From contig NW_002476443.1 of assembly GCF_000189635.1 (NCBI RefSeq), positions 1,752-65,751 on the forward strand: a stretch of DNA of 64,000 nucleotides, given 5' to 3'. The notes under the pieces were generated by a model. That model was not told the DNA's origin, did no database searches, and saw only the letters and a program-made list of their open reading frames with translations. How positions within the stretch are numbered: position 1 is the stretch's first letter; each line of letters opens with the position of its first letter. A program made the translations under genes and the position numbers. The DNA comes from Tetrahymena thermophila SB210. Lineage: Eukaryota; Ciliophora; Oligohymenophorea; Hymenostomatida; Tetrahymenidae. This document shows, one piece after another, positions 5,511 to 34,108 of this stretch.

Positions 5511-7011
5511 TCACAAATCTATCTCAAACTTATTTATAAATATAAATATTTAAATTATTTTATAATCTTATTAATTTTACATCGATTTCTTATTTTTTTA
5601 ATTGATCTCTTAATATTTCTTTGAATTATTCTTTTGATTGAAAAATCTGATTGAATCTATTAGTTTTTATATATCAAATGTATCTTTATCAAACAATTTG
5701 TTTTAAGTATATTTAATAAAATCATTTTTTCTATATTAAAATTATTATTTTAGATTTATTTGTAAATAAATATATTTATTTTGAATAAATAAGCTAATCA
5801 CTAAGTGAAAAGCGTAAATCAACAAAATAATCAATTTTTTCAAAATTTCTTGCTTTATCAATCGATAAATTAAGTTTTTACAATAAAGAAAGTGTCAAAC
5901 TTGTGATATTCTTGCACTACGCTATTCCTGTGCCTAAATCTTTTGCACCCTCATCACCAATACTATTTTAACTATAAATATAAGAATAAATAATGAATTA
6001 AGAAAATAAATTTGGAGGAGAAAGGATTGTAAAAAAAGATTGTTGCTTTTGTTAGTATTTTCGTTTGTTTTTGAAGGAGTAAGTGACTAAGTATGTATTT
6101 AAGTAATTAAGTTAACAAATTGATTATTTTTTAGTTGAGGAGTAAGTAAGTAAGTTATTAAAACAGTAATTTAATAAAAAAAAAAAATAACTAACTCTAA
6201 CTTGCTTACTAACGAATTGACTTAATTAGCTAATCACTAAGTGAAAAGCGTAAATCAACAAAATAATCAATGTTTTCAAAATTTCTTGTTTTATCAATCG
6301 ATAAATTAAGTTTTTACCTTAAATCAAGTGTCAAACTTGTGATATTCTTGCACTATGCTATTCCTGTGCTTAAATCTTTTGCGCCCTCATCGCCAATACT
6401 ATTATTTCTTTAAATATAAGAATATATAATGAATTAAGAAAATAAATTTGGAGGAGAAAGGATTGTAAAAAATGATTGTTGCTTTTGTTAGTATCTTCGT
6501 TTGTTTTTGAAGGAGTAAGTGACTAAGTTTGTAAGTAAGTAATTAAGTTAACAAATTGATTATTTTTTAATTGAAGAGTAAGTAAGTTAGTTATTAAAAA
6601 AGTAATCTAATAAAAAAATAAATAACTAACTCTAACTTGCTTACTAACGAAGTGACTTAATTAGCTAATCACTAAATGAAAAGCGTAAATCAATAAAATA
6701 ATCAATTTTTTCAAAATTTCTTGCTTTATTAATCGATAAATTAAGTTTTTACCTTAAATCAAGTGTCAAATTTGTGATATTCTTGAACTACGCTATTCCT
6801 GTGCCTAAATCTTTTGCACCCTATGCACCAATACTATAATTGCTTTAAATATAAGAATAAATAATGAATTAAGAAAATAAATTTGGAGGAGAAAGGATTG
6901 TTAAAAATGATTGTTGTTTTTGTTAGTATCTTCGTTTGTTTTTGAAGGAGTAAGTGACTAAGTTTGTAAGTAAATAATTAAGTTAACAAATTGATTATTT
7001 TTTAATTGAAG

Positions 7012-7050
<39 letters not shown>

Positions 7051-10000
7051 TATTAAAAAAGTAATCTAATAAAAAAATAAATAACTAACTCTAACTTGCT
7101 TACTAACGAAGTGACTTAATTAGCTATTCACTAAATGAAAAGCGTAAATCAATAAAATAATCAATTTTTTCAAAATTTCTTGCTTTATCAATCGATAAAT
7201 TAAGTTTTTACCTTAAATCAAGTGTCAAATTTGTGATATTCTTGCACTACGCTATTCCTGTGCCTAAATCTTTTGCACCATATGCACCAATAATATTATA
7301 GCTTTAAATATAAGAATAAATAATAAATTAAGAAAATAAATTTGGAGGAGAAAGGATTGTAAAAAAAGATTGTTGCTTTTGTTAGTATGTCCGTTTGTTT
7401 TTGAAGGAGTAAGTAACTAAGTATGTAAGTAAGTAATTAAGTTAACAAATTGATTATTTTTTAGTTCAGGAATAAGTAAGTAAGTTATTCAAACAGCAAT
7501 CTAATAAAAAATAAATAACTAACTCTAACTTGCTTAGTAACGAAGTGACTTAATTAGCTAATCACTAAATGAAAAGCGTAAATCAACAAAATAATCAATT
7601 TTTTCAAAATTTCTTGCTTTATCAAACGATAAATTAAGTTTTTACCTTAAATCAAGTGTCAAACTTGTGATATTCTTGCACTACGCTATTCCTGTGCCTA
7701 ATTCTTTTGCACCCTATGCACCAATATTATTTTCACTATAAATATAAGAATAAATAATGAATTAAAAAAATAAATTTGGAGGAGAAAAGATTTTAAAAAA
7801 AGATTGTTGCTTTTGCTAGTATGTCCGTTTGTTTTTGAAGGAGTAAGTGACTAAGTATGTAATTAAGTAATTAAGTTAACAAATAGATTATTTTTTAGTT
7901 GAGGAATAAGTAAGTAAGTTATTAAAAAAGTAATCTAATAAAAAAATAAATAACTAACATTAACTTGCTTACTAACGAAGTGACTTAATTAGCTAATCAC
8001 TAAATGAAAAGCGTAAATCAATAAAATAATCAATTTTTCCAAAATTTCTTGCTTTATCAATAGATAAATTAAGTTTTTACCTTAAATCAAGTGTCAAACT
8101 TGTGATATTCTTGCACAACGCTATTCCTGTGCCTAAATCTTTTGCACCCTTATCAGCAATACCAATCAATCTTTAAATATAAGAATAAATAATGAATTAA
8201 GAAAATAAATTTGGAGGAGAAAGGATTGTAAAAAAAGATTGTTGCTTTTGTTAGTATCTTCGTTTGTTTTTGAAGGAGTAAGTAACTAAGTAATGTACTT
8301 TCTGTTTGATAAGAATCACTTTAATTTAAGAATTTTTTTTAATAAGGAGGTATTTTTCCAAAAATAAGTTTTTCATTGAGTCTTATTCAAAAGATTGTAA
8401 ATTCTCTAAGGAGTAAAAATTTTAAAAATAACTTTAAAAAAACCCTCCTTATTCAAACGTATGTACGGTATGTAAGTAAGTAATTAAGTTAACAAATTGA
8501 TTATTTTTTAGTTGAGGAGTAAGTAAGTAAGTAAGTTATTAAAAAAGCAATCAAATAAAAAAATAAATAACAAATTCTAACTTACTTACTAATGAAGTGA
8601 CTTAATTAGCTAATCACTAAGTGAAAAGCATAAATCAACAAAATAATGAATTTTTTATAAATTTCTTGCTTTATCAATCGATAAATTAAGTTTTTACTAT
8701 AAATAAAGTGTCAAACTTGTGATATTCTTGCACTACGCTATTCCTGTGCCTAAATCTTTTGCACCCTATGTACCAATATTATTCAATCTTTAAATATAAG
8801 AATAAATAATGAGTTAAGAAAATAAATTTGGAGGAGAAAGGATAGTAAAAAAGATTGTTGCTTTTGTTAGTATCTTAGTTTGTTTTTGAAGGAGTAAATA
8901 ACTAAGTATGTAAGTAAGTAATTAAGTTAACAAATTGATTATTTTTTAGTTGAGGAGTAAGTAAGTAAGTAAGTTATTAAAAAAGCAATCTAATAAAAAA
9001 ATAAATAACTAACTAACTCTAACTTGCTTACTAACTAAGTGACTTAATTAGATAATCACTAAGTGAAAAGCGTAAATCAATAAAATAATCAATTTTTCCA
9101 AAATTTCTTGCTTTATCAATAGATAAATTAAGTTTTTACCTTAAATTAAGTGTCAAACTTGTGATATTCTTGCACAACGCTATTCCTGTGCCTAAATCTT
9201 TTGCACCCTATGCACCAATACTATTATTGCTTTTAATATAAGAATAAATAATATATTAAGAAAATAAATTTGGAGGAGAAAAGATTGTAAAAAATGATTG
9301 TTGCTTTTTTTAGTATCTTCGTTTGTTTTTCAAGTAGTAAGTAACTAAGTATATAAGTAAGTAATTAAGTTAACAAATAGATTATTTTTTAGTTGAGGAA
9401 TAAGTAAGTAAGTTATTAAAAAAGTAATCTAATAAAAAAATAAATAACTAACTCTAACTTGCTTACTAACGAAGTGACTTAATTAGCTAATCACTAAATG
9501 AAAAGCGTAAATCAATAAAATAATCAATTTTTCCAAAATTTCTTGCTTTATCAGTAGATAAATTAAGTTTTTACCTTAAATTAAGTGTCAAACTTGTGAT
9601 ATTCTTACACTACGCTATTCCCGTGCCTAAATCTTTTGCACCCTCATTACCAATACTATTCCACCTTTAAATATAAGAATAAATAATGAATTAAGAAAAT
9701 AAATTTGGAGGAGAAAGGATTGTAAAAAAAGATTGTTGCTTTTGTTAGTATCTTCGTTTGTTTTTGAAGGAATAAAGTAACTAAGTATGTAAGTAAGTAA
9801 TTAAGTTAACAAATTGATTATTTTTTAGTTGAGGAGTAAGTAAGTAAGTTATTAAAAAAGCAATCTAATAAAAAATAAATAACTAACTCTAACTTGCTTA
9901 CTAACGAATTGACTTAATTAGCTAATCACTAATTGAAAAGCGTAAATCAACAAAATAATCAATTTTTTCAAAATTTCTTGCTTAATCAATCGATAAATTA

Positions 10001-10707
10001 AGTTTTTACCTTAAATCAAGTGTCAAACTTGTGATATTCTTGCACTACGCTATTCCTGTGCCTAAATCTTTTGCACCCTATGCACCAATACTATTATTGC
10101 TTTTAATATAAGAATAAATAATGTATTAAGAAAATAAATTTGGAGGAGAAAATATTGTAAAAAATGATTGTTGCTTTTGTTAGTATCTTCGTTTGATTTT
10201 CAAGTAGTAAGTAACTAAGTATATAAGTAAGTAATTAAGTTAACAAATAGATTATTTTTTAGTTGAGGAATAAGTAAGTAAGTTATTAAAAAAGCAATCT
10301 AATAAAAAAATAAATAAAAAATTCTAACTTACTTACTTACTAATGAAGTGACTTAATTAGCTAATCACTAAGTGAAAAGCATAAATCAACAAAATAATGA
10401 ATTTTTTATAAATTTCTTGCTTTATCAATAGATAAATTAAGTTTTTACTATAAATAAAGTGTCAAACTTGTGATATTCTTGCACTACGCTATTCCTGTGC
10501 CTAAATCTTTTGCACCCTATGCACCAATACTATTCTGCCTTTAAATATAAGAATAAATAATGTATTAAGAAAATAAATTTGGAGGAGAAAAGATTGTAAA
10601 AAATGATTGTTGCTTTTATTAGTTCCTTCGTTTGTTTTTCAAGGAGTAAGTAACTAAGTATAAAAGTAAGTAATTAAGTTAACAAATAGATTATTTTTTA
10701 ATTGAGG

Positions 10708-10748
<41 letters not shown>

Positions 10749-13700
10749 TTTATTAAAAAAATAATCTAATAAAAAAATAAATAACTAACTCTAACTTGCT
10801 TACTAACGAATTGACTTAATTAGCTAATCACTAAATGAAAAGCGTAAATCAATAAAATAATCAATTTTTCCAAAATTTCTTGCTTTATCAATAGATAAAT
10901 TAAGTTTTTACCATAAATAAAGTGTCAAACTTGTGATATTCTTGCACTACGCTATTCCTGTGCCTAAATCTTTTGCACCCTATGCACCAATACTATTATT
11001 GCTTTAAATATAAGAATAAATTATGAATTAAGAAAATATATGAGGAAGAAAGGATTTTAAAAAAAGATTGTTGCATTTATTAGTATCTTCGTTTATTTTT
11101 GAAGGATTAAGTAACTAAGTATGTAAGTAAGTAATTAAGTTAACAAATTGATTATTTTTTTTTTGAGGAGTATATAAAAAAAAATATTGTTGCTTTTATT
11201 AGTATTTTAATTTGTTTTTGAAGGAATAAAAATAATTAAAAACATGAAATCTATAATTCATAATTCATTTACTATATAAGTAGCATTAATGTAAAAATTA
11301 AAAAAACTTAATTCTATTAAATAGATATAAATAATTTATAATGAATTTATCAATAAATCTTAATAGAAAATAAGCAATTATTTAGATATTTAATTTTCAT
11401 GAATAATTCACTTGTTAACAAAAAAAATGAATCTCAAATTTTATGAATTATGCTCAATTATCAGAATGAATTATATTTTTAATTTCATTTTTTCTTTATT
11501 TTTATTTTTAACATTTTTTTAAAATAATTATTTTTCTAATAATAAAAAAAAGAGCTGAAGGAGAAAATTTTCAAAAATATATTTTTACTCTTTTGAAATA
11601 TTACCGTTATTTAAAAAATTAAGTTAGTAAATATAAATATAATTTACTTGCCTTAATAAACTAATTGTTAAGGAGAACAGATTATCAATAAAATAATTAT
11701 AAAAAGAGTAAAATGGATCATTAATAAAATATTAAAAGCCTAAATTAAAATGAAAATATTACATTAAATCTATTATGACAACATTGTAATTTTAAGCTAT
11801 ACTCAAATAATTTATAGATCTAATTTCTATAATCATATTTTGCTCTATTTTTTTATCATTTTGTATCGAAAGTGTTTTTTGTACTATTTATTTCATTTCT
11901 TTTGAATTAGAAATGAATTTTGCATCGCTTTATTCAACTATATCATACAAAGATGCCCTCTAAACACTATCAGAAACAACAAGAAGGTTAATAAATTTAT
12001 AAATTTCTGAATTTTTGTTAATTAAAATATTAGATTTTTCGAAAGGTTTATCTAACTGCTTTTGTGTCATTAATGCGAAATTTGAAACTGTATTTTCTTT
12101 CAGATCTTAATAATTATCTAATAAAGCTAGCAACAATCCTACTGAATATGAATCAGACTAAAATAAATAATTAATTTAAAATTAACATTTTCTTAAAAAA
12201 AAGTACTTTCTTTGTATAAATCTTAAGTTCATTATCCTTTTTATTTAATATTTCAGGTGCTGAATATCCTAAATTTCCTATGTGCTATTAAATTTTTTTT
12301 AATATTTAATATATAGAATTAAAAATCTACATCTATAGTTTGAATTGAATTTTTATTATCTGGAATCTAAGCAGATAAGCCGAAATCACCTTAAAATTAA
12401 AAGATAATGAAAAATATTTTATGAATAAAAATAATTTACATAATTTAATTTCTGGTTATTTTCCATCTAAATAAACCAAAAAATTTTCTGGTTTAATATC
12501 TCTATGAATGATATTAAATTAATGAATATAATTAACAGAATCTATAATTTAGATCGCTATTTAAAATTTATTATCTTCATTCAATTTTCCTTCTTTGTTT
12601 TATCTTTCAAGATATTCATCTAATGAACCTTTAGATAAACAGCAAAATGAAATGAAATTTATTTGTAAAAAAATCATTTTAATATTAAAAATTCTTCAAA
12701 ATAAATTAATTGAATAATTTTTATGAAAATATAATGTTTATTTTAATTAAAAATAATTATTTTTACAATTTATAAATAAAATTTTTTATTTTTTAAAAAT
12801 TTAAAAAATAAATTAAATTATAATTATTGAAAATATATTTATTTATTTGTTTATTTACTTAAAATTGTGTATTTATATGACAAAAATATCTTTATAATTA
12901 GTTTAATTGAAGCCTATTTTAAAATTAATGTAAATAATTTAATAAATTACATGAACATTTTTCTAACTCAAAAACTGAGTATCTATCAGGCCCTATATTA
13001 CTTTCTATTATATAGCTATCATAAAGCTATACGACTAGTGGCTCTTTTAATTTCTACATAATACTAATTTCATTTTAGATTTGTTATTCATCTTCTATTT
13101 TTTGTATTTTTAACACTATTTCTTTGTTATCAAGTTTTACTTTTTTAGTAGCTAATACCATTCCAAAGCCTCCAAAATTTAGAATTTGAAAATTATCCGA
13201 ATATTTTTTATGTTCATAGAGACTTTTCAGCAGATTAGATAATACTTCCACTTTTTTAAATTGTGCTTTCTTATCTTTTTCTAAAATTTTCTTATTGGTG
13301 TTCTCTAGGATAAACTAAGCATCTTTGTCAAATTAATTATGCTTTAAAATTAATTATGAGATAATTTAAATTTAATATATAACTTTTTACAAAAATTTAA
13401 ACTAAATATAATAATTATTTACCGTTTGTTTTTACTGTTGATTCATACTATCAAATATTTGCTGTGCCTATTCAGGTATTTATTCCTTTTATTATAAAAT
13501 TATTTTTTCAATTCAAATATTCCAGATAAATTAAAATCAATTTTTTTTATTTTAAAAGATTAATGTAATAAAAAAAGTAATTATTAAGTAAAATTTCTTT
13601 TTATATTAATTTGCTAGGAAAAACATTAATTTAGAAATAATAAGTTTGTTTTACAATTTGCATAAATTTTATTTGATAGTTTAAAAATGATAAGGTTTTT

Positions 13701-16534
13701 TTTTAAAGTTAAAAATTATAAGAAATATAAACTATTTTTATTTTATCATGCTCTTAAAAATATTTTTATTTCATCCAATTTTAAAAAAAAATATAAAATA
13801 TTTTTATTAATTATTTTTCATGCTTTTTTTAAGAGTCTCAATAAAATTTAATTGTTTTTGGGTTTTTTTAATAAGTTTAAATTTTGAGACTGTTTTTAAG
13901 TAAATTATGAAATAATATATTACCTCTAGTATCATAGAAGTCAATAAAAATTTCAATGGTTAACCATGCATTTAGATGAGAGAGGATAGTAATTCTCCTG
14001 CTGTAGTCCTGTCTAAATACCTATGTCTTAAGCATATTTTAGCTATTTTGTATATATTTGAATTCTTATCTATCTAATATTTTTCTTTAGGTATTTCTTC
14101 TCCGTTGAATAGATAATATTTAATATTGGTATCTATCCAATTCTCATTTAGAGCTTTGAGATTGTCAAGCTCTAATAAAATGAGTCCTAGTGAAAAGAGG
14201 TCTGACTATTTAATTAAAATAAACTTGAAAAATAATACAAAGCTATTATTAAAAACCTGAATTCTAGATTATCCTGCTTCCACTTCTGGAGCAAAATATG
14301 CATCAGTTCCTTTCTGAAAATTATAAAAAATATTGAAACCAATTAAAATAATAATTAAATTTTTAACCTTAGACACAAAGCTTTTTGATCTAGACACAGC
14401 TGATGCAAAACCTAGATCACCTAAATTTAAAAGATATTTATTAAAAATTAAATAATATAAAAATAATTAAGTACAAAGTTTGATTGAGAAACCATATTCA
14501 TTAGAAGGACAAACAAGGAAATTTTAAGGCTTGATATCCCTGTGCATAATATTTTTGACATGAAGGTTATTCAACCCTTCTATCATTTGTATGGCTATTA
14601 TTTCCTTCATCTCTTTCGGAGGTGGAACTTGTTATTTTCTAAGGATATCAAAGAATTATTTGAGATTATCTAGTTAATTGTAAAATTAAATTAATTATGA
14701 TTAGAATTTTAAAATAAAAATTAAATAAATTTTTGTTTTTAAATCTTTAAATTATTTTTTTTCTGTTTATTTACAAATATTTTATTTTTTAAAACTTAGA
14801 GAAAAAATAAAAATTTTAAATTGAATTTCTTCCTTTCTATATTATATAGAAATGAAAGAGTTCAATTAAATAATTTATTAAGAATATTGTTTTTTATACC
14901 TATTTTATAAAAATTAATATATTATTTTTTAGTAATTTTAGAATTAATATATTTATTTAACTAAATAATTGAAATTATTAGAAATTATTTATTTGTTTCA
15001 ACACATTTAATTAGTTTAAAATTAATTTAATTTCTGTTCAAATAGATTAATTATACAATTAAAGTTATTTAATTTACCCTCAAATGATAGAAATTTAACT
15101 ATTACCTATTTAATCTTTATTGAAATAATTTATTTTGTTCAGCTATTAAGATTTTTTAATTTTTTAAAAATTTATTTTTTGAATTAAACAATTTGAAATA
15201 AGTTTTAATTGTATTATTAATTTTATTATTAAGGAAGTTTTGGTTAATTTAATACAAAAAATTAATTAAAGAAGAAAATAAAATTTAAATTCTTTAATTT
15301 GAAAATTATTGATTATTAAGTTTATATTTTTATATGATCAGTTAGGAAAACAATAATATATTTCTTAACCAAAACCTATTTTTCTTCAATTTTAGGTTTT
15401 CTTATTTAAATTTAATTATTTTATTAATTTAATTTTTTAAAATGAAGTGAATTAAATAATCTTAGCTATTAATTTACTAAATACTATCTTTAGCTCTTTT
15501 TTAATTTTATATTAATTTAGTTAATATAATATAAATATTATTTCTAAGTTAAATAATAAATTTTTTGAGGATTGTTAAAAATTAATTAATTTTTCAATTA
15601 ATAATTAAATCAAATTATAAAATCAAATAATTTTTATTAATTTATTATTTAAAATAGTAAAAAATAAAAACAAAAATTTATGAAAATTGTTTAATAAAAA
15701 ATTAAATTGTTATATTGGGAAAATAGATTATAAAATTTTGATGAATTAATCTTCTAGAAGATTTAATTAAGAAATTTTACAAAATTTGTTAAAAATAAAT
15801 GAAAAAATCTTCATTGTGGGGAATCCTAAAAAATTAATTAAAATTAACATTTTTATATTAAATTAAATAATTTCTATTACATTTTCTAAATTAATTAGAT
15901 TTGTTAAGCGCAAATCTAATTTTTTTTAATCACCCTTAAAAAGACTTAGAAAAAAAATAAAATTATCTTTTTTTAAAATGGAGATATTAAGCCATATTAG
16001 GTCAATAAAAAGTCTAAATACATCTTATATTATGTATCTTTACACACTTTTTAAAAATGAAATAAAAAAAAAATGGATGAAAAATATGTGATTTTTTTTA
16101 CTCTCGCAAAGCTCCATTTCCATTACAAAGTAGGATTTGGCTTCAGTTTAAACGATAATATCGTTTCCATCATCATCTTCATCTTCTTTTTCTTCCATTA
16201 AATAGAAGCAATCATAAACGTTTACTAAACATTCTGATTAGCTAAACTTTTGAAGCATTTCATACTCCTTTTTCAAAGATTCGATTCCATTCTAGTCCTT
16301 TTGGTTTGAGCTCCCTAAGAATTTGAGAGCTACTTTGCGATTCTGTTAAGAATTATCTGCCTTTAAGATAAGAGCATAAGCGCCATTGCTTAAGTACTCA
16401 AAATTTTTGAAGTATTTTTTCTAACTGAACATCAACTTGACTAATTCCTTAATTGCTGGTTTTTGAATTTAGCAATCTTATGATACTTTGCTTGAGATAG
16501 TTTCGATTAACTAGTTTTGAACTTTCTTAGACAT
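5511..16534 (-). CDS. tandem double protein kinase with 12 LRRs (gene A)
   Basis: Minus-strand gene of 24 exons, 3495 nt, 1164 residues. Kinase exons: 16534-16102, 14669-14475, 14420-14368, 14313-14257, 14205-13924, 13485-13423, 13341-12951, 12628-12440, 12389-12331, 12284-12207, 12157-11763. These are followed by twelve 90-nt LRR exons (11001 to 5882) and a terminal exon 5730-5511 ending in TGA. Kinase 1 shows VALKFL (lysine), HRDIKPQN, DLG in place of DFG, GTDAYFAPEV and SDLFSLG. Kinase 2 shows LNFGGFGMV, IVLKIQ, HRDIKPEN, CDFG and GYSAPEIL. Both have the catalytic Asp and the Asn of the catalytic loop, so both could be active. I see no signal peptide or membrane segment, which suggests a cytosolic protein. 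The terminal exon encodes a charged Lys/Asn/Gln-rich tail of 72 residues. The start is the first ATG (MSKKVQNQL), conserved in units B and C. Known: kinases with LRRs are common in ciliates. Inferred: the LRR array supplies target recognition. Confidence 0.85.
5882..11001 (-). repeat. LRR exon array A1: 12 tandem exon-intron units
   Basis: Twelve units of about 430 bp, each one 90-nt LRR exon plus an intron of about 340 nt. Exons: 11001-10912, 10538-10449, 10099-10010, 9664-9575, 9229-9140, 8787-8698, 8170-8081, 7735-7646, 7301-7212, 6842-6753, 6407-6318, 5971-5882. The consensus peptide starts N-S-I-G-D-E-G-A-K, continues DLGTGIAQCKN and ends ITSLTLDLR. Some exons carry G-A-Q-G-A or G-A-Y-G-A in place of G-D-E-G-A. 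Introns are highly similar between units and hold (GTAA)n microsatellites that expand, for example at 7011-7050 and 10709-10747. Strong similarity in both exons and introns points to recent unequal crossing-over or gene conversion. Confidence 0.9.
8294..8468. mobile_element. MITE-like inverted-repeat insertion in an LRR intron
   Basis: The intron between LRR exons 8787-8698 and 8170-8081 is 527 nt instead of about 340. The extra sequence is absent from all other units. Its left part contains aataaggaggtattttt and its right part aaaaaaaccctccttatt, which are near reverse complements. The outer ends are GTAC with a similar GTTTG segment on both sides. It interrupts the (GTAA)n tract, with TA on each side. 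It has no coding capacity, so it would be a non-autonomous element. Confidence 0.6.
11002..11762 (-). other. intron joining kinase part to LRR array in gene A
   Basis: Between the phase-2 donor after exon 11 (GTAATATT, first base at 11762) and the first LRR exon. The part nearest the LRR exons is a degraded copy of the array intron (a GTTGCTTTT-like motif near 11190). The part nearest the kinase (about 11540-11760) is also found in units B and C. No further exon seen. Confidence 0.6.
14670..16101 (-). other. long first intron of gene A
   Basis: About 1.43 kb of AT-rich intron between the exon encoding MEMELCES and the exon with HRDIKPQN. The same long intron occurs in B (24077-22533) and in C (from 38980 down to about 37.93 kb). 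I see no gene inside it. Confidence 0.7.
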
Positions 16535-16570
16535 TTGGCTATTCACTTTTGTTATCTGACGGGGGTTGTT

Positions 16571-16618
16571 AACTGGGGTACTGACTTACTTAAAGTAGGC
16601 TGAGGGGTTTGCTTTTAT
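16571..16618 (-). promoter_or_regulatory. conserved 5' element upstream of gene A
   Basis: A G-rich block in AT-rich flank, 40-80 nt before the start codon. It contains TACTT-A-AAGTA, an inverted repeat, followed by GGCTGAGGGGTTTGC on the plus strand. The same block lies before B (24547-24592) and C (39441-39500) with only a few changes. It could be 5' UTR or a promoter element. Conservation may partly reflect recent duplication. Confidence 0.4.
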
Positions 16619-18667
16619 ACTAAAAACAGATGTTTTTATAGAGATGTAAAATTTATAGATATCAAAATCACTTTGTTTCTTCTATATAAAGAGAGGAAAA
16701 TCAGCTTAATTATAAAAGAAATTATAGCAAAAGACCTATCAAGAGAAACTGGTTAAAAATCAAGAAGAAATCTTAATTAATTTTCTAATATACTAACAAC
16801 TTTTCTATTTTTAGATTTTTATTAATTAAGGATAAGATAGCAATCAATATAAAGAGTATCTTTTTAAATTGGTAATATATTTTATAAACTAATTATCTAA
16901 AACAACCATTTTCTTATGCTAAAATATATTAACATAGATTTTTATAATATAAAATTTATTGCTGAGTATTTATAATTATACAACAATGAATGCGTATATA
17001 GATATATGTATTACTTAGTGGCTTTTAAAATAAATTAACTTTAAATATATTTATTTATTACAAATAAAACCTTTTAAATTTAATATTAATAAGTTTTTTT
17101 AAGTTTTTGTGAATAAAAATATATTACATATAAATCGCACTTGAAAATCAAAGTATTAGTAAAAGATATCAGCTACTTATTTTATTTGTTGATAAATGTA
17201 AATATTGTTTAGTTATTGCTTATTATGTATTGAATTATATAAAGAATCTATTATGTAATATTATTTAAATTTACTAATAAATTTTCTCTTTATTATGTAA
17301 AATAGCGTAAAAGGAAAAACAGACCAAAAGTCCTATTAATTAATAAATATTGTTATTAAATGAATGTGTTGTATAGTTTTTAATAAAGTAAATTTTTTAT
17401 TTGACAATTTAATCTAATCAAAGATCCTCTTTACATTAATCTTAAAATATACTTTTAAAGTGAAGCTTTTTTATACTACGCACCTATAGAACCAAATATT
17501 TTTCCCAAAATGTAAATATTTCAAATCTTATTGACAGTTTTTCTAATGAAAAAGTTAAATTTGGGATCAAAACTTTTGTCCAATTTTAACTAGCTCCTAA
17601 TTTGACAGTTTTACTGTATGTTTTTTAGATACAATTAAATAGAGAGCAAAAGCAAAAAACACTAAAGATCTTAGTGATATTTTGATTTTTAAAAGATTAT
17701 TCTTATCAGAATATCTTTTCAATTAATTAAAGTACCTACTCACTAATCTACAAATATACTAATATCTTTACTATTTATAGCTAGTTGATAATGGTTAAAT
17801 TTAATATTAATAATAATATTATCTATTTCATTTATATAATAGAATCGCTATCTAATTCAAATTAAAATATTTTCTCTTAAATCCTAAACAAAAAAAATTC
17901 TAAACTAAAATTATTTTTAATAAAAAAATAAATAATTCTACCTATTTTATTAGTAGCGATAAATTAATTTTATTTTAAAAGCTAAAACTAATTTTTGATT
18001 AAATCTTTTAAAATGGCTTATTAACTGTCAGCTAAATAGGTTATTTACTAAATTATTTTTAGGATAGATTTTAATTTATAAGGAAGGAGCATTTTGATTA
18101 ATAGCAAAAAATATATATAATTTACAAGAAGCCTTTAAAATTACATAACATTCTTTTGATGTTAGTATTATTATTTATTACAATTAATTATAAACCTAAT
18201 ATACTTAAATCCCAAATATTTTTACAAACTTAGCAACTTCAAACTAAAGAATAATATTTCTAAAATTAAAATTAAAAATAAATAATAGATTAAAAATATT
18301 CTTGAAATATTTTATTAATCTAAAATATAAAAAAGGGAGTTTTGTTTTTTTTGTTGATCAAAAATTTAAATAGAAATTAAATTAAAAGGAAAGTATTAAT
18401 TAATATAAGGTGAAATACCATTTTAAGTTAAGCTTTTCCAATTTCTTTTAATTGATTCCTTTAGTTATTTAATTTAACAAATTTTGCAATTATATTTATA
18501 AGAAATTGAATGAATTTTAATTTTTACAAAATTTGAAAAGAGTTAAATTATTTTCTATTTTTAATTCTTTGGATGAGTTAAAGTAACAAAAAAAGTAAGC
18601 AATCACAATAAAAAGAAATAGAAAAAAGAGCTTTATTGTTTTAAATTAATTTTTATATTTAAAAATA
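16619..18667. other. duplicated upstream flank of gene A
   Basis: About 1.6-1.8 kb of AT-rich sequence without an ORF I can support. It is shared with the flank of C (39500 to about 41150) and in part with B (24600-25852), for example the motif AGCTCCTAATTTGACAG near 17600, also seen near 25490 and 40450. The duplication unit therefore included the upstream region. The last ~300 bases before 18667 are unique AT-rich sequence. Confidence 0.6.
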
Positions 18668-22600: not shown

Positions 22601-24510
22601 CAAATTATTTTTTTTGTATTTATTATCATAAAATATTTTTTATTTTTAAAACTTCGAGAAAAAAATAAAAATTTATAAATTTAATTTCTTCCTTTATGTA
22701 TTAAGCAAAGATAATAATTTATTAAGGGTATTTCATTCTATACCTATTTTATAAAGAGTAATATATTATTTTTTAGTAATTTTAGAATTAACGTAAATTT
22801 ATTTAACAAAATAATAGAAATTAATTATTTGTTTCAACACATTTAATTAGTTTAAAATTAATTTAATTTGTGTTCAAATAGATTAATTATACAATTAAAA
22901 TTATTTAATTTTAACCTCAAATGATAGAAATTTAACTATAGCTGTTCCTGGTATTGAAATATCACAAACACTACTGTTGGATATTTCAATACCAGAACAT
23001 ATTTTTTTATATTAATAATTTAATTGCTTATAAAATTATAAAAAAAATTAATTAATAAAAAAATATAAAATTAAAATTTATTTAAATAATTGTTAAAATA
23101 AACAAAAAATATTTTTTTTATTATTTTTTTTTGGTTTTTGAAAAAAAAATAAGTTTTATTGATGTTATTAATTTTATTTAATTATTTGAGAAGTTTTGGT
23201 TAAATTAAATAAATATAATTTAATCTAAAAATTAATACATTAAAATCAATATTTAAAGAAGGAAAAAAAATTTTAATTCTTTAATATAAAATATATATAT
23301 TATTAAGTTTAATTTTTTATATGATCAAATTAGCAAATAAATCAATATTTTATTTCTTAACCAAAATCTATTTTTCTTCAATTCATTTTAAGTTTTTTAA
23401 TTTAATATAAAATTTAATTATTTTATTAATTTAATTTTAAAAATGAAATGAAATAAATTTTCTTAGCTGTTAATTTACTAAATTCTCTCTTAAGCTCATT
23501 TTTAATTTTATATTAATTTAGTTAATTTAATATAAATATTATTTCAAAGCTAAATAATATAATTTTTTAGTTAATAATTAAATCAAACTATAAAGCCAAA
23601 TAATATTTTTTTGATTATTTAAAATAGTAAAAATTAATAAAAACAAATATTTATAAAAATTGTTTCATTAAATTAAATTGTTATATTCGGGAAATAGATT
23701 ATAAAATTTTGATGAATTATTCTTCTAGAAGGTTTAATTAAGAAATCTTATAAAATTTATTAAAAATAAATGAAAAAATCTTAATTGTGATCCTAAAAAA
23801 TTAATTAAAATGATCATTTTTAAATTAAATAATTTCTATTATATTACCTAAATTAGTTAAATCTGTTTAGTGCAAAACTAATTTTTTTAATTTCGCTATC
23901 AAAATCAAAAAAAAGACTTAGAAAAAAAAATATAATTACCTATTTTTAAAATGGAGATGAGTAATCCATTTCAGGTCTATAAAAAGTATAAATATTTATA
24001 ACTTCTTTCTTATTTTATGTATTTTTACAAGTTTTAAAAAAAATAAAAATTGATGAAAAATATGTGATTCTTTTTACTCTCGCAAAGCTCCATTTCCATT
24101 ACAAAGAAGGATTTGACTCCAGTTTAAACAATAATATCGTTTCCATCAGTATCTTCATCTTCTTTTTCTTCCATTAAGTAGAAGCAATCATAGAAATTTA
24201 CTAAAAATTCTGATTGGCTAAACATTTGAAGCATTTCATACTCCTTTTTCAAAGATTCGATTCCATTCTTGTCCTTTTGGTTTGAACTCCCTAAGAATTT
24301 GAGAGCTACTTTGCGACTCTTTTAAGAATTATAAGCCTTTAAGATAATAGCACAATCGCCATTGCTTAAGTACTCATAATTTTTGAAGTATTTTTTCTAA
24401 CTGAACATCAAATTGACTAATTCCTTTATTGCTGGTCTTTGAATTTAGCAATCTTATGATACTTTACTTGAGATAATTTCTATTAAATCGTTTTGAACTT
24501 TCTTAGACAT
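19669..24510 (-). pseudogene. kinase-LRR unit B, frameshifted, LRR array lost
   Basis: Minus-strand copy of the double-kinase gene with the same 11-exon layout: first exon 24510-24078 (433 nt, as in A and C), exon 11 ending at 19669 with a GTAATATT donor. Most motifs survive: HRDIKPSN, DLG, GTAAYFAPEV in kinase 1; SFGQFGMV, HRD, a DFG exon and an APE exon in kinase 2. In the exon after SDLFSLG one base is missing compared with A and C, giving CAT GGT TAA CCA TGA; the TGA is at 21818-21816 and would stop the protein late in kinase 1. The phase-2 donor at the end of exon 11 has no LRR exon to join. Its first intron also carries a palindromic insertion. I judge it a recent pseudogene. A sequencing error at the deletion is the main alternative. 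Confidence 0.75.
22938..23003. mobile_element. small palindromic (foldback) element in intron of B
   Basis: Starts TA-GCTGTTCC and forms a hairpin. The left arm TGGTATTGAAATATC and right arm GATATTTCAATACCA are reverse complements around a short loop. Genes A and C lack it: A reads straight on from ATAGAAATTTAACTA at about 15.09 kb. Probably a non-autonomous TA-targeted element. Confidence 0.6.
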
Positions 24511-25852
24511 TTGAATATTCGCTTTCGCTATCCGACTTGGGTTGTTAAATGGTGTACTGACTTACTTAAAGTAGGTTGAGGGGTTTGCTTTTTTACAAAA
24601 AACAGATGTTTTTATAGAGATGTAAAATTTATGTATACAAAATCACTTTGTTTCTTCTATATAAAGAGGAGAATCAGCTTAAAAATAAAAGAAATTACAT
24701 CAAAAAATCTATTAAGTGAAATTGGTTAAAAATCAAGAAGATATCTTAATTAATTTTCAAATATACTAACAACTTTCTATTTTTAGATTATTATTATTAA
24801 AGGATAAGATAACAATGAATATAAACAATATCTTTTTAAATTTATAAAATATTTTATAAATTAATTTTCTGAAATAACCATTTTCTTATTCTAAAATATA
24901 TTAGCATATATTTCGAAAATATAAAATTTATCACATAATAATTATGATAATATTAATAATTAATATTTATATTGATATATGTATTACTTAGAGCATTTTA
25001 AAATAAATTAACTTAAAACTTATTTATTTATCATAAATAATATCTTTTAAATTTTAATATTTATCAATTTTTTTTAAGTTTTTATAAATTATAAAATATT
25101 AAATATAAAACACACTTGAAAATCAAGTATTAGTAAAAGATATTAATTACTTATTTTATTTGTTGCTAAATGAAACTTTTGTTTAGTTATTGCTTATTAT
25201 TTATTTGATTATACAAAGAATCTATTATGTAATGTAATTTTAATATACTATTAACTTTTCTCTTTATTACATAAAGTAGAGTAGTAAAGTCTTATTAATT
25301 AATATTGTTATTAAATAAATGAATGAATTGTATAGTTTTTATAAAAGTATATTTTTTATTAGTTAATTTTATCTAAGCACACCAATAGAAACAAATATTT
25401 TTTTCAGAATGCAAATATTTCAAAGCTTAGTGATGTATTTTTTAATGAAAAAGTTAAATTTAGGATCAAAACTTTTGTCCAATTTAACTATCTCCTAATT
25501 TGGCAGGTTTTACTGTAAGTTTTTTTTATAAAATTTTATATTGAGTGAAAGAAAAAAACACTCAAGATCTTAAGTTAAAACTAATTTTTAATGAAACCTT
25601 TTATTTATTTTTTTAAATAATTTAATATTTTTTTACTTTAAAAAGAATATTATTTGTTTTAAAGTGGCTTATTAACTGTCAGATAAATAGGTTATATACT
25701 AAATTATTTTTAGGATAGGTGTTAATTTATAAGGAAGGAGCATTTTGATTATTAGTAAAAAATATATTTAATTTATAAGAAGTCTTTTAAATTATATAAC
25801 ATTCTTTTGATGTTAGTATTTTTATTTATTTCAATTAATTATAAACCTAATA
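24511..25852. other. duplicated upstream flank of unit B
   Basis: AT-rich and similar to the flanks of A and C, including the G-rich 5' element at 24547-24592. Similarity stops at CCTAATATA, exactly where a palindromic element begins. No ORF supported. Confidence 0.6.
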
Positions 25853-26178: not shown

Positions 26179-27346
26179 TCATCTTAAATCACGTTTCAAA
26201 CTTCTGATATTCTTTAACTACACTATTTCTGTGCCTAAATCTTTTGCAACATATGCACCAATACTATTATACCTTAAATATAAGAATAAATTATGAATTA
26301 AGAAAGTAAATTTAGAGTAGAAGGGATTCTAAATAAAGATTGCTGCTTTTGTTAGTATTTTAGTTTTTTTTTGAAGTAGTAAGTAAACAAATTGATTATT
26401 TTTTAGTTAAGTAGTAAGTATGTATGTTTTAAATTAGTAATCTAATAAATAATAAATAAATAAATAACTAAGCAACTGACTTAGTTAGCTAATCACTAGG
26501 GAAAAGTGTAAATCAGCAAATAAACAATTTTTTGTATATTTCTTGCTTTAATAATATAATATTAATCAATAAGGTAGGTTATAACTTTAAATAAGTGTTA
26601 AAATTGTGATATTGTTGCACTATACTATTCCTGTGCCTAATTCCTTTGCTCCCTTCTTTATAAAAATTTAATATATAATAATAGTTATAAAATAATATTT
26701 TAATATGCAATTCTGAGTGTATGCTACATGTGTAAATAAATTTCATTCATCACTAATATTATTTCCACTTTAAATATTAGAATAAATAATCTATTAAGTA
26801 AATAAATTTTGGAGAAAAAGGATTACATTAAGTATTCAAAATAAATAAATAACTAACTAACGAAGTGACTTAATTAGCTAATCACTAAACTAAAAGAGTA
26901 AATCAACAAAATAATCAATTTTTCTATATTTCTTGCTTTAGCAATCATTAAATAAAATTTATACACTAAATCAAGTGTTAAAATTGTGATATTCTTGCAC
27001 TATGCTATTCCTGTATCTTAAACTTTTGCATTTTCAACACAAATACTATTTAAGCTTTGAACATAATAATAAATAGTGAAGTACGAAAATAAATTTGTAA
27101 GAAAAAGGATTTTATAAAAAGTTTACTGCCTTTGTTAGTATTTTAGTCTGTTTTTGAAAGAGTAAAGAAACAAATTGATTATTTTTTAGTTTAATAGCAA
27201 AATAATCAATTTTTTCTATATTTATTACTTTATTAATCAATAAATTAAGTTTTTACTTAAAATAAAGTGCCAAACTTGTGATATTCTTTCACTATGATAT
27301 TCCGTACCTAAATCAATATAAGAATAAATAAATAATAAATTAAAAA
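26179..27346 (-). pseudogene. decaying LRR exons between C and B
   Basis: Four recognisable array-A1-type LRR exons on the minus strand at different stages of decay. The one ending at 27257 has lost its first half. 27054-26965 is an intact 90-nt open exon (LNSI at its start, TLDLV at its end). The one at about 26755-26586 is split by about 95 nt of unrelated sequence. 26272-26183 is open, but its donor GT has become AT, so the frame runs directly into TGA at 26181-26179. The set may be the tail of a lost unit or of an extended gene C. It shows that the family is losing as well as gaining repeats. Confidence 0.7.
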
Positions 27347-27499: not shown

Positions 27500-27500
27500 A

Positions 27501-27567
<67 letters not shown>

Positions 27568-27570
27568 ATA
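27500..27570. repeat. (TAAA)n microsatellite
   Basis: About 18 perfect copies of TAAA in the spacer behind gene C. Confidence 0.95.
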
Positions 27571-28445
27571 GCTAGAGTGAAATGCCTATTTAATTTATAA
27601 AAGGCCAAATATAATATATCTTAATTACATATTAAATAATGCTAAATAAGCTTAAAGCAGCCTTATTTTTGTGTTTTTAGAAAGTTTAACACTCAAAATT
27701 AAAAATTTGAAATAATATATACTATTTATAGTTATAATATGTCATTTTTTTAAAAAAGATAAATATTGAAAAAATTTTTAGGACAAACTGGTATTTTGTT
27801 ATTAAAAATCAAATATACTGTCTATGTATTTAAAATAAAAATTAGGTTTCATTTATTACAAAATATCCAAATTTATTTAAAAATGTATAAAATTTAAAAA
27901 TAATTATTTATTTATATGAATATATTTTTGCTAAATAATTTCTATGTCATTTTATAAAGAATTATCCATATTTATTAATTATATTCATTATTTATAATGT
28001 TTTTCACGAAGCTTAATTATGTTATTTAATCACATTCAATTAAATTTACTAAAAAATAAAATATTTTAATTTTAATTAATTAGTATATTTGAGTCCATCA
28101 CAAATCTATCTTAATCTTATTTATAAATATAAATATTTTAATTATTTTATAATCTTATCAATTTTACTTTTATTTCTTATTTTTTTAATTGATCTCTTAA
28201 TATTTATTTGAATTATTCTTCTGATTGAGAAATCTTATTGCCTCTATAAGTTTTTATATATTAAATGTATCTTTATCAAACAATGTGTTTTAAATATATT
28301 TAATAAAACCATTTTTTGTATATTAAAATTATTATATTAGATTTATTTGTAAATAAATAAGCTAATCAGTGAAAAATGTAAATCAACAAAATAATCAATT
28401 TTTTCAAAATTTCTTGCTTTATCAATCGATAAATTAAGTTTTTAC
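27571..28445 (-). other. 3' flank of gene C and its likely terminal exon
   Basis: Similar to 5160-5800 behind gene A. In A the terminal exon begins after AG at 5732-5731. At the matching site in C (28319-28318) the dinucleotide reads AC, so this acceptor is lost. A nearby TTATAG could serve instead. The frame matching A meets a TGA earlier than in A. The true C-terminus of gene C is therefore unresolved from sequence alone. Confidence 0.5.
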
Positions 28446-31225
28446 CTTAAATCAAGTGTCAAACTTGTGATATTCTTACACTACGCTATTCCTATGCCTA
28501 AATCTTTTGCACCCTCATCACCAATACTATTACCACTTTAAATATAAGAATAAATAATGAATTAAGAAAATAAATTTGGAGGAGAAAGGATTGTAAAAAA
28601 AGATTGTTGCTTTTGTTAGTATCTTCGTTTGTTTTTGAAGGAGTAAGTAAGTAAGTAAGTAAGTAATTAAGTTAACAAATTGATTATTTTTTAGTTGAGG
28701 AGTAAGTAAGTAAGTTATTAAAAAAGCAATCTATCTAATAAAAAAATAAATAACTAACTCTAACTTGCTTACTAACAAAGTGACTTAATTAGCTAATCAC
28801 TAAGTGAAAAGCGTAAATCAACAAAATAATCAATTTTTTCAAAATTTCTGGCTTTATCAATCGATAAAATAAGTTTTTACTATAAATCAAGTGTCAAACT
28901 TGTGATATTCTTGCACTACGCTATTCTTGTGTCTAAATCTTTTGCACCCTATGCACCAATACTATTCCAACTTTAAATATAAGAATAAATAATGAATTAA
29001 GAAAATAAATTTGGAGGAGAAAAGATTGTAAAAAAGAATGTTGCTTTTGTTAGTATCTTCGTTTGTTTTTGAAGGAGTAAGTAAGTAAGTAATTAAGTTA
29101 ACAAATTGATTATTTTTTAGTTGAGGAGTAAGTAAGTAAGTTATTAAAAAAGCAATCTATCTAATAAAAAAATAAATAATTAACTCTAACTTGCTTACTA
29201 ACGAAGTGATATTAATTAGCTAATCACTAAGTGAAAAGCGTAAATCAACAAAATAATCAATTTTTTCAATATTTCTTGCTTTATCAATCGATAAATTAAG
29301 TTTTTACTTTAAAATAAGTGTCAAACTTGTGATATTCTTGCACTACGCTATTCCTGTGCCTAAATCTTTTGCACCCTCATCACCAATACCATTCCACCTT
29401 TAAATATAAGAATAAATAATGAATTAAGAAAATAAATTTGGAGGAGAAAGGATTGTAAAAAAAGATTGTTGCTTTTGTTAGTATCTTCGTTTGTTTTTGA
29501 AGGAGTAAGTAAGTAAGTAATTAAGTTAACAAATTGATTATTTTTTAGCTGAGGAGTAAGTAAGTAAGTAAGTAAATTATTAAAAAAGCAATCTATCTAA
29601 TAAAAAAATAAATAACTAACTCTAACTTGCTTACTAACGAAGTGACTTAATTAGCTAATCACTAAGTGAAAAGCGTAAATTAACAAAATAATCAATTTTT
29701 TCAAAATTTATTGCTTTATCAATCCATAAATTAAGTTTTTACTATAAATGAAGTGTCAAACTTGTGATATTCTTGCACTACGCTATTCCTGTGCCTAAAT
29801 CTTTTGCACCCTATGCACCAATAGTATTACGTCTTTAAATATAAGAATAAATAATGAATTGAGAAAATAAATTTGGAGGAGAAAGGATTGTAAAAAAGAT
29901 TGTTGCTTTTGTTAATATCTTCGTTTGTTTTTGAAGAGTAAGTAAGTAAGTAAGTAATTAAGTTAACAAATTGATTATTTTTTAGTTGAGGAGTAAGTAA
30001 GTAAGTTATTAAAAAAGCAATCTATCTAATAAAAAAATAAATAACTAACTCTAACTTGCTTACTAACGAAGTGACTTAATTAGCTAATCACTAAGTGAAA
30101 AGCGTAAATCAACAAAATAATCAATTTTTTCAAAATTTCTTGCTTTATCAATCGATAAATTAAGTTTTTACTATAAATCAAGTGTCAAACTTGTGATATT
30201 CTTGCACTAAGCTATTCCTGTGCCTAAATCTTTTGCACCCTATGCACCAATACTATTCTAACTTTAAATATAAGAATAAATAATGAATTAAGAAAATAAA
30301 TTTGGAGGAGAAAGGATTGTAAAAAAGAATGTTGCTTTTGTTAGTATCTTCGTTTGTTTTTGAAGGAGTAAGTAAGTAAGTAATTAAGTTAACAAATTGA
30401 TTATTTTTTAGTTGAGGAGTAAGTAAGTAAGTTATTAAAAAAGCAATCTATCTAATAAAAAAATAAATAATTAACTCTAACTTGCTTACTAACGAAGTGA
30501 TATTAATTAGCTAATCACTAAGTGAAAAGCGTAAATCAACAAAATAATCAATTTTTTCAATATTTCTTGCTTTATCAATCCATAAATTAAGTTTTTACTA
30601 TAAATGAAGTGTCAAACTTGTGATATTCTTGCACTATGCTATTCCTGAGCCTAAATCTTTTGCACCCTATGCACCAATAGTATTACAGCTTTAAATATAA
30701 GAATAAATAATGAATTAAGAAAATAAATTTGGAGGAGAAAGGATTGTAAAAAAGATTGTTGCTTTTGTTAGTATCTTCGTTTGTTTTTGAAGGAGTAAGT
30801 AAGTAAGTAAGTAATTAAGTTAACAAATTGATTATTTTTTAGTTGAGGAGTAAGTAAGTAAGTTATTAAAAAAGCAATCTATCTAATAAAAAAATAAATA
30901 ATTAACTCTAACTTGCTTACTAACGAAGTGATATTAATTAGCTAATCACTAAGTGAAAAGCGTAAATCAACAAAATAATCAATTTTTTCAATATTTCTTG
31001 CTTTATCAATCCATAAATTAAGTTTTTACTATAAATGAAGTGTCAAACTTGTGAAATTCTTGCACTACGCTATTCCTGAGCCTAAATCTTTTGCACCCTA
31101 TGCACCAATAGTATTACGGCTTTAAATATAAGAAGAAATAATGAATTAAGAAAATAAACTTGGAGGAGAAAGGATTGTAAAAAAAGATTGTTGCTTTTGT
31201 TAGTATCTTCGTTTGTTTTTGAAGG

Positions 31226-31258
<33 letters not shown>

Positions 31259-31668
31259 TTAAGTTAACAAATTGATTATTTTTTAGTTGAGGAGTAAGTA
31301 AGTAAGTTATTAAAAAAGCAATCTATCTAATAAAAAAATAAATAACTAACTCTAACTTGCTTACTAATGAAGTGATATTAATTAGCTAATCACTAAGTGA
31401 AAAGCGTAAATCAACAAAATAATCAATTTTTTCAAAATTTCTTGCTTTATCAATCGATAAATTAAGTTTTTACCTTAAATTAAGTGTCAAACTTGTGATA
31501 TTCTTGCATTACACTATTCCTGTGCCTAAATCTTTTGCACCCTCATCACCAATACTATTTTCACTTTAAATATAAGAATAAATAATGAATTAAGAAAATA
31601 AATTTGGAGGAGAAAGGATTGTAAAAAAGATTGTTGCTTTTGTTAGTATCTTCGTTTGTTTTTGAAGG

Positions 31669-31729
<61 letters not shown>

Positions 31730-34108
31730 TTAAGTTAACAAATTGATTATTTTGTAGTTGAGGAGTAAGTAAGTTATTAAAAAAGCAATCTATCTAATAA
31801 AAAAATAAATAACTAACTCTAACTTGCTTACTAACGAAGTGACTTAATTAGCTAATCACTAAGTGAAAAGCGCAAATCAACAAAATAATCAATTTTTTCA
31901 AAATTTCTTGCTTTATCAATCCATAAATTAAGTTTTTACTATAAATCAAGTGTCAAACTTGTGATATTCTTGCACTACGCTATTCCTGAGCCTAAATCTT
32001 TTGCACCCTATGCACCAATACTATTCTACCTTTAAATATAAGAATAAATAATGAATTAAGAAAATAAATTTGGAGGAGAAAGGATTGTAAAAAAGAATGT
32101 TGCTTTTGTTAGTATCTTCGTTTGTTTTTGAAGGAGTAAGTAAGTAAGTAATTAAGTTAACAAATTGATTATTTTTTAGTTGAGGAGTAAGTAAGTAAGT
32201 TATTAAAAAAGCAATCTATCTAATAAAAAAATAAATAATTAACTCTAACTTGCTTACTAACGAAGTGATATTAATTAGCTAATCACTAAGTGAAAAGCGT
32301 AAATCAACAAAATAATCAATTTTTTCAATATTTCTTGCTTTATCAATCCATAAATTAAGTTTTTACTATAAATGAAGTGTCAAACTTGTGATATTCTTGC
32401 ACTAAGCTATTCCTGAGCCTAAATCTTTTGCACCCTATGCACCAATAGTATTACGGCTTTAAATATAAGAAGAAATAATGAATTAAGAAAATAAACTTGG
32501 AGGAGAAAGGATTGTAAAAAAAGATTGTTGCTTTTGTTAGTATCTTCGTTTGTTTTTGAAGGAGTAAGTAAGTAAGTAAGTAATTAAGTTAACAAATTGA
32601 TTATTTTTTAGTTGAGGAGTAAGTAAGTAAGTTATTAAAAAAGCAATCTATCTAATAAAAAAATAAATAACTAACTCTAACTTGCTTACTAATGAAGTGA
32701 TATTAATTAGCTAATCACTAAGTGAAAAGCGTAAATCAACAAAATAATCAATTTTTTCAAAATTTCTTGCTTTATCAATCGATAAATTAAGTTTTTACCT
32801 TAAATTAAGTGTCAAACTTGTGATATTCTTGCATTACACTATTCCTGTGCCTAAATCTTTTGCACCCTCATCACCAATACTATTTTCACTTTAAATATAA
32901 GAATAAATAATGAATTAAGAAAATAAATTTGGAGGAGAAAGGATTGTAAAAAAAGATTGTTGCTTTTGTTAGTATCTTCGTTTGTTTTTGAAGGAGTAAG
33001 TAAGTAAGTAATTAAGTTAACAAATTGATTATTTTGTAGTTGAGGAGAAAGTAAGTAAATTATTAAAAAAGCATTCTATCTAATAAAAAAATAAATAACT
33101 AACTCTAACTTGCTTACTAACGAAGTGACTTAATTAGCTAATCACTAAGTGAAAAGCGTAAATCAACAAAATAACCAATTTTTTCAATATTTGTTGCTTT
33201 ATCAATCGATAAATTAAGTTTTTACTTTAAATTAAGTGTCAAACTTGTGATATTCTTGCACTACGCTATTTCTGTGCCTAAATCTTTTGCACCCTATGCA
33301 CCAATTCTATTATTGCTTTAAATATAAGAATAAATAATGAATTAAGAAAATAAATTTGGAGGAGAAAGGATTGTAAAAAAGATTGTTGCTTTTGTTAGTA
33401 TCTTCGTTTGTTTTTGAAGGATTAAGTAAGTAAGTTATTAAAAAAGCAATCTATCTAATAAAAAAATAAATAACTAATTCTAACTTGCTTACTAACGAAG
33501 TGACTTAATTAGCTAATCACTAAGTGAAAAGCGTAAATCAACAAAATAATCAATTTTTTCATAATTTCTTGCTTTATCAATCGATAAATTAAGTTTTTAC
33601 CTTAAATCAAGTGTCAAACTTGTGATATTCTTGCACTACGCTATTCCTGTGCCTAAATCTTTTGCACCCTATGCACCAATACTATTACCACTTTAAATAT
33701 AAGAAGAAATAATGAATTAAGAAATTTGGAGGAGAAAGGATTGTAAAAAAAGATTGTTGCTTTTGTTAGTATCTTCGTTTGTTTTTCAAGGAGTAAGTAA
33801 GTAATTAAGTTATCAAATTGATTATTTTATAGTTGAGGAGTAAGTAAGTAAGTTATTAAAAAGGCAATCTATCTAATAAAAAAATAAATAACTAACTCTA
33901 ACTTGCTTACTAACGAAGTGACTTAATTAGCTAATCACTAAGTGAAAAGCGTAAATCAACAAAATAATCAATTTTTTCAAAATTTCTTGCTTTATCAATC
34001 GATAAATTAAGTTTTTACTATAAATTAAGTGTCAAACTTGTGATATTCTTGCACTACGCTATTCCTGTGCCTAAATCTTTTGCACCCTATGCACGAATTA
34101 TATTATAG
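28446..34108 (-). repeat. LRR exon array of gene C: 14 tandem exon-intron units
   Basis: Exons 34108-34019, 33690-33601, 33315-33226, 32888-32799, 32456-32367, 32029-31940, 31563-31474, 31119-31030, 30688-30599, 30261-30172, 29832-29743, 29397-29308, 28970-28881, 28535-28446, each 90 nt between AG and GTAAAAAC. Units are nearly identical in exon and intron apart from (GTAA)n length and a few codons at the exon edges. Variant patterns repeat in blocks: exons 31119 and 32456 share AGAAGAAAT and AAACTTGGAGG in the neighbouring intron, and exons 31563 and 32888 share CATTACACTATTCC. This shows recent duplication of multi-unit blocks. Confidence 0.9.

Follow-up and report, generated by a model that had tools for sequence, protein, structure and literature searches.

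Tetrahymena genes in which each LRR is encoded by a 90-bp exon (group III) were described in 2019, and the genes analyzed here belong to that family (Xiong et al., 2019; PMC6564038). According to the available sections of that paper, the family is characterized by exons of exactly 90 bp, phase-2 introns, arrays of exon-intron units that can be recognized in the DNA itself, conserved Leu positions, and protein kinases among the expanded domains; the exon length, intron phase, arrays, and kinases are likewise found at this locus, and the Leu positions may be. The commonest intron here is about 340 bp, compared with about 257 bp in T. thermophila and 232 bp in T. malaccensis as given in those sections. 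Bacterial recognition was proposed there as one possibility for the family, and the terms hypervariable, positive selection, and concave are absent from the available main text. A search of the open literature on the phenomenon reported below found nothing for ciliates besides this paper.

The closest known parallel is the brown-algal ROCO genes. In the available account, the LRR-ROCO genes have one LRR per phase-2 exon and undergo exon shuffling, as here, and positive selection acts on four concave-face sites (PMC11378527). The same account shows that they differ in exon length (72 bp instead of 90 bp), in their 23-residue repeat, and in encoding a ROC-COR GTPase rather than kinases; Pfam searches of the scanned pieces of the Tetrahymena genes, as distinct from whole genes, found kinase and LRR families and no Roc or COR. 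When prokaryote genomes were scanned with the spliced array, 18 stretches matched the pattern, but none was confirmed as a relative.

LRR exon arrays

The window, which is the whole 64-kb stretch of DNA analyzed, has an A+T content of 78% and contains four groups of LRR exons:

5882-11001, minus strand: array A, 12 young 90-bp phase-2 LRR exons, recognized by their borders, an open frame in the ciliate code, and intron lengths
28446-34108, minus strand: array C, 14 young 90-bp phase-2 LRR exons, recognized by the same three features
202-4487, minus strand: an older, diverged array, 12 detected 90-bp phase-2 LRR exons, from the exon scan
26183-27346, minus strand: four decayed copies of the LRR exon, located downstream of array C, from the exon scan

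A sequence-only reading made earlier from this DNA had placed the 26 LRR exons of arrays A and C within 5882-34108, and all of them were found there on the minus strand. Array A extends from exon A1 (10912-11001) to exon A12 (5882-5971), position 5882 being the last base of A12, and array C extends from exon C1 (34019-34108) to exon C14 (28446-28535), position 34108 being the first base of C1. All 26 exons are exactly 90 bp with AG/GT borders, are in phase 2, and have neither a TGA nor any length change among them. The 11 introns of array A are 344-527 bp long (344-346 bp in six), and the 13 introns of array C are 285-376 bp long. Runs of the tetranucleotide AGTA occur in introns of both arrays (10708-10748 in A and 31669-31735 in C) and may be a partial source of the intron length differences. 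The LRR exon scan of the plus strand of the window gave no matches.

The exons of the older array are splice-compatible with array A and have diverged throughout, and this array is perhaps a continuation of array A and gene A. Its palette at codon 28 is similar to that of the young arrays, with D, N, H, Y, or E in 11 of 12 exons. In the young arrays, Leu occupies codons 12, 25, 27, and 29 in all 26 exons, and Ile occupies codon 16 in all 26 and codon 22 in 25. These six codons probably correspond to the six conserved leucine positions of Xiong et al. (2019), whose available sections give Ile as the most frequent residue at position 16 of the 90-bp LRR exons in T. shanghaiensis (PMC6564038).

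The arrays read in the ciliate code, in which TAA and TAG encode Gln: the 778 codons of arrays A and C include 5 TAA, 43 TAG, and no TGA. The same code is found in another reading frame of the window:

50685-52208, minus strand: IF2-like GTPase reading frame, named from its sequence and the Pfam GTP_EFTU match

The GTPase domain of this frame has 11 Gln codons, of which four are TAA and three are TAG, and all seven fall within stretches that read as conserved GTPase sequence. The plus strand of the window also carries a tRNA-Met (CAT) gene at 42972-43045, identified by ARAGORN, and a ciliate-code reading frame of 922 codons at 43347-46112, which has no Pfam match at E 0.01.

Kinase domains and gene layout

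Three paralogous kinase parts are located in the window:

11763-16658 (N-terminal limit provisional), minus strand: kinase part of gene A, from Pfam PF00069, translation, exon end, and omega
35014-39538 (limits approximate), minus strand: kinase part of gene C, a paralogue of A, from DNA alignment
19669-24634 (limits approximate), minus strand: kinase part of gene B, a third paralogue, from DNA alignment and Pfam

Gene A encodes kinase 1 at about 16651-13920 (HRDIKPQN, DLG) and kinase 2 at about 13359-11830 (HRDIKPEN, DFG). The pieces with the HRD motif exceed the PF00069 gathering score for both kinases (E 8.6e-10 and 3.5e-13); for the N lobe of kinase 2, the scanned piece falls short of that score (E 8.5e-5). 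Two pieces of gene B match PF00069, the HRD piece above the gathering score (E 1.9e-14) and the N-lobe of kinase 1 below it (E 2.8e-6), and the one piece of gene C that was scanned, the N-lobe of kinase 1, also scores below it (E 1e-6); kinase 2 of both B and C is identified solely by DNA alignment to A. The kinase segments are under purifying selection, with dN/dS over six segments of 0.39 (A-B), 0.48 (A-C), and 0.44 (B-C).

The last kinase exon carries half an LRR and a phase-2 donor at its end in all three genes (seen by eye in B and C). At the place of codon 28, this half LRR has D, H, and N in A, B, and C, respectively, with AT, AA, and AG before the donor. Judging from phase, motif, and position, the kinase exon would be joined to the array, which would give a kinase-kinase-LRR layout on the coding strand. 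For gene B, minus-strand exon scans from its kinase part down to position 11001 found no LRR exon. The family had been described in the sequence-only reading as kinase-linked and receptor-like; kinase sequences do lie upstream of each array, but the order kinase, kinase, LRR is not that of a plant-type LRR receptor kinase (an LRR ectodomain N-terminal of a membrane span and a kinase), and this candidate was rejected.

Variable positions in the LRR exons

Variation among the 26 exons is concentrated in two tracts at the exon edges:

10998-11001, minus strand: hypervariable tract 1 (exon A1 as example; same place in every exon), 15 different 4-mers among 26 exons
10912-10919, minus strand: hypervariable tract 2 (exon A1 as example), 10 different types among 26 exons

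Tract 1 consists of exon base 1, which completes the split junction codon (x7) as its third base, together with codon 1 (x8). Tract 2 consists of codon 28 (x5), the invariant Leu 29, and the two bases before the donor, which are the first two of the junction codon. Nine of these bases (exon bases 1-4, 83-85, and 89-90) had been named as varying between constant introns and scaffold codons, and they were compared with the other 81 exon bases and the flanking introns. The mean per-site diversity (pi) is 0.512 at the nine bases and 0.663 at exon bases 1-4 alone, compared with 0.060 at the other 81 exon bases, 0.045 in the upstream intron (109 columns), and 0.078 in the downstream intron (149 columns). 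Sites with pi of at least 0.5 make up 7 of the 9 named bases, 1 of the 81 other exon bases (in codon 3), and none of the 258 intron columns. Bases 84 and 85 are among the nine but hardly vary (pi 0.15 and 0). Among 276 windows of four intron columns, the highest pi is 0.216 and none is at 0.663 or above. The predicted excess of diversity, far above that of intron and silent sites, is therefore what the alignment of the 26 exons with their flanking introns contains.

The residues at codon 1 agree letter for letter with those read earlier, both in gene C (Y, G, N, E, R, Q, E, R, C, Q, R, W, W, G) and in gene A (N, Q, N, W, N, L, L, E, Y, N, N, Q), and counts over the 26 exons confirm the variation noticed at the codon before the last full Leu and at the two bases before the donor. 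Codon 28 encodes D in 11 exons, N in 6, H in 4, Y in 3, and S and I in one each, and is NAT in 24 of 26. Immediately before the donor, the exon ends in AG in 12 copies, TA in 10, AA in 2, and TT and TG in one each; a splice-signal effect on the exon edges was looked at by eye in these donors, 12/26 of which follow AG and 10/26 TA. Exon base 1 is C in 10, T in 8, and A and G in 4 each, and all four bases occur at positions 1, 2, and 83. Entropy is 3.02 bits at codon 1, 2.32 at the junction, 2.15 at codon 28, and 1.91 at codon 3; codons 6 and 7 have 1.27 bits each, mostly because Ala-Gln (17) alternates with Asp-Glu (7). The variable sites form distinct combinations in 22 of the 26 exons. Polar, charged, or aromatic residues account for 73 of the 76 at x5, x7, and x8, with W and Y enriched and no Lys, whereas the share predicted from window trinucleotides is 47%; the p-value of 8.5e-21 for this palette is too small because related repeats are treated as independent.

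Since the nine sites were first picked by eye on the same data, the data were split between arrays A and C, and sites with pi of at least 0.5 picked in one array were measured in the other. The sites from array A have a mean pi of 0.402 in C, compared with 0.051 for other columns, and those from array C have 0.542 in A, compared with 0.074 (permutation p 5e-5 in both directions). The picked lists include intron sites (4 of 9 in A and 1 of 8 in C), none of which is common to both. The x positions usually vary between repeats of any LRR protein, and the informative feature is therefore solely how these sites compare with young introns and silent sites. The control for an ordinary-LRR reading was an RI-like LRR protein with 28-residue repeats encoded on a viral contig from IMG/VR (L001, 2435-3133). 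Its repeats vary most at x5 and also at x7, x8, and positions outside this region, and they have many silent differences. At codons with an unchanging residue, 19.2% of codon comparisons differ in this one control (6 repeats, 17 codons), compared with 0.6% of those between exons in the arrays (13 codons).

Position in the LRR fold

Setting the register from the conserved Asn (codon 2) of LxxLxLxxN makes codon 28 x5, the junction codon x7, codon 1 x8, and codon 3 x10. The array matches RI-like LRR domains of solved structure: phmmer against solved-structure chains gave Rna1p/RanGAP (1.1e-5) and NLRX1 (1.1e-5), Pfam LRR_6 matches the array at 8.9e-33, and HMMER aligns it with the RI-like LRR domains of Rna1p, NLRX1, and axonemal proteins. 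In some of these alignments, the 30-residue repeat is two residues longer in the strand region than the 28-residue repeat. Codon 28 may accordingly be either x5 or part of an extension of the same strand, and it would alternate with Leu either way.

The viral RI-like LRR protein, which has the same core motif, served as a proxy for the array itself in a structure model (232 residues, mean pLDDT 92.9). Strands of the proxy cover x3-x7 in 4 of 7 repeats (e.g., residues 72-76, with Asn at 78) and only x3-x5 in the other 3, so that x5 is within the strand in 7/7, x7 is within it in 4/7 and outside in 3/7, and x8 follows it in 7/7. Exposure of these x positions on the concave face of LRR proteins is documented in the available parts of two papers (PMC8226289; PMC3138743). 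From the LRR register and the proxy model, the variable residues would be located on the binding face, and by register they would be exposed. The earlier proposal of a concave beta-sheet location would hold for x5, x7, and x8 by register and, in the modeled strand, for x5 throughout and x7 in part, but x8 lies beyond it.

Selection and homogenization

Among the 32 repeat pairs whose introns differ by less than 2%, 45.5% of comparisons at the nine sites still show a difference. The ratio piN/piS is 1.52 at codon 1 (piS 0.45), infinite at codon 28, where there is no silent change, 2.79 at codon 3, and 1.77 at codons 6 and 7, although the N and S changes counted per codon fall short of what a firm test needs and the copies are paralogues on one contig. 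Across the 27 codons that remain when 1 and 28 are excluded, the ratio is 1.05, and it is 0.63 when codons 3, 6, and 7 are removed as well. The junction codon by itself shows no selection signal (0.87). The diversifying selection suggested by the sequence-only reading is thus favored at codons 1 and 28 and by the intron contrast, but the junction codon does not share it, so that it is the comparison with introns and scaffold that carries the case for selection. Tree-based tests are unsafe because distances in the exon middle do not track intron distances (rho -0.41 to 0.04). Most 90-bp-exon LRR genes have Ka/Ks values indicating purifying selection, according to the available sections of Xiong et al. 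(2019; PMC6564038), and this counts against the selection reading.

The high silent variation at base 1 is not explained by amino-acid selection alone, unless base 1 hitchhikes with codon 1. The two are paired in part (C-AAT in 5/6 and T-GAA in 3/3), and the frequent silent change at base 1 perhaps reflects a base that travels with codon 1. The silent bases 7, 85, 86, and 88, which lie between or beside variable ones, are invariant in 26/26 exons and are evidence against a regional mutation hotspot.

Intron diversity is 0.071 between arrays A and C, 0.079 within A, and 0.046 within C, and scaffold bases differ by 0.035 between the arrays. Because the introns of A and C are this close while the kinase dS of A versus C is 0.178, either the arrays arose later than the genes or homogenization has acted between A and C. 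The variable tracts at the 5′ and 3′ exon edges show no association with each other (rho 0.05, permutation p 0.18); in the same set of 21 segment pairs tested, a weak association links the 3′ tract to the far downstream intron (rho 0.22, p 0.02). The junction codon is assembled from two exons, and a new exon order would therefore make a new contact residue without mutation. Joining every exon end to every exon start yields 676 junction codons, of which 4 are TGA; the standard code would give 84 stops.

Interpretation

The explanation we consider probable is that selection maintains diversity at the recognition residues, the remainder of the array being young or homogenized. The genes would belong to the young part of the Tetrahymena 90-bp-exon LRR family, and their repeats are apparently joined to two protein kinase domains. 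One exon would supply one 30-residue LRR turn, the phase-2 intron interrupting the repeat within the binding strand. Unequal crossing over or conversion may keep introns and scaffold codons near-identical, the similarity being observed and the mechanism proposed. Selection would hold x5, x7, and x8 of the concave face and the adjoining x10 different and mostly polar or aromatic; at these four positions, the pattern is observed, selection is read from the excess over introns and silent sites, and exposure is read from the register. The ciliate code, as computed from the exon joins, would remove most of the stop codons that such joins create. The likely role of these proteins would be to bind many partners, such as food, intruding microbes, or their products, and to signal to the kinases.

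Alternatively, the variable positions could be unconstrained and old, with introns and scaffold recently homogenized by gene conversion and no selection for recognition. The closeness of introns (0.071) and scaffold (0.035) between A and C despite the kinase dS of 0.178 fits such a history, as does the silent variation at base 1, which appears as old as that at codon 1. However, conversion tracts would carry the variable bases too, as these lie inside the homogenized unit, unless selection resists, and the palette is restricted rather than random, as the prevalence of NAT at codon 28 and the mostly polar residues indicate; we regard this history as unlikely. Targeted hypermutation of the exon edges, by a hotspot or a retro-element-like process with selection merely filtering its products, could account for variation in four contiguous bases at the acceptor and two at the donor, silent changes at base 1 included, and for the use of all four bases at positions 1, 2, and 83. 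Such a process seems very improbable, given that position 83 is eight bases upstream of the donor GT while base 84 varies little and bases 85-88 do not vary, that no length change occurs in the 26 exons, and that the exon pairs C4/C7 and C5/C8, with no difference in 259-260 flanking intron columns, are also identical at the nine sites.

Instead of recognizing foreign matter, the diverse residues might serve to assemble internal partners, such as complexes of the cilium or cytoskeleton. Searches with the array and the old exons gave matches to LRR chains with the names dynein regulatory complex subunit 5 and radial spoke protein 15 and to a chain of 8th8, which we take to be a Tetrahymena structure, with the name Kinase domain protein. 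As a general expectation, though, structural proteins would not keep near-identical repeats that differ mainly at contacts, and the young, species-specific expansion of the family described in the available sections of Xiong et al. (2019; PMC6564038) suits changing targets better, which makes an internal role doubtful in our estimation.

A further and more tentative possibility is that the arrays form a germline, kinase-coupled recognition repertoire that is ready for shuffling: with an intron inside a contact codon, a rearrangement or exon skip would write a new residue, and the ciliate code would keep nearly all of the joins readable. Recognition of the VLR or NLR type would in that case have an independent counterpart in a single-celled eukaryote.

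Comparison with known recognition systems

The likeness to hypervariable LRR receptors pointed out in the sequence-only reading is supported. Lamprey VLRs have a variable LRR face, as found here, and are assembled somatically, in contrast to the arrays of this locus, which are contiguous in the one version of the DNA given. In the highly variable plant NLRs, as described in the available text, high-entropy residues (threshold 1.5 bits) likewise occur at LRR x positions, many of them concave, but the diversity is between alleles rather than between repeats, and the proteins carry NB-ARC rather than kinases (PMC8226289). The cereal tandem kinase immune proteins, in the accounts available, have two kinase domains in one protein, as would be the case here, a likeness of architecture. 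The signature of binding-face diversity in young exons would provide a molecular reason to test the 90-bp-exon family as recognition proteins and would name the residues to test. It would also add to brown algae and plants another lineage whose LRR repeats become diverse at matching positions.
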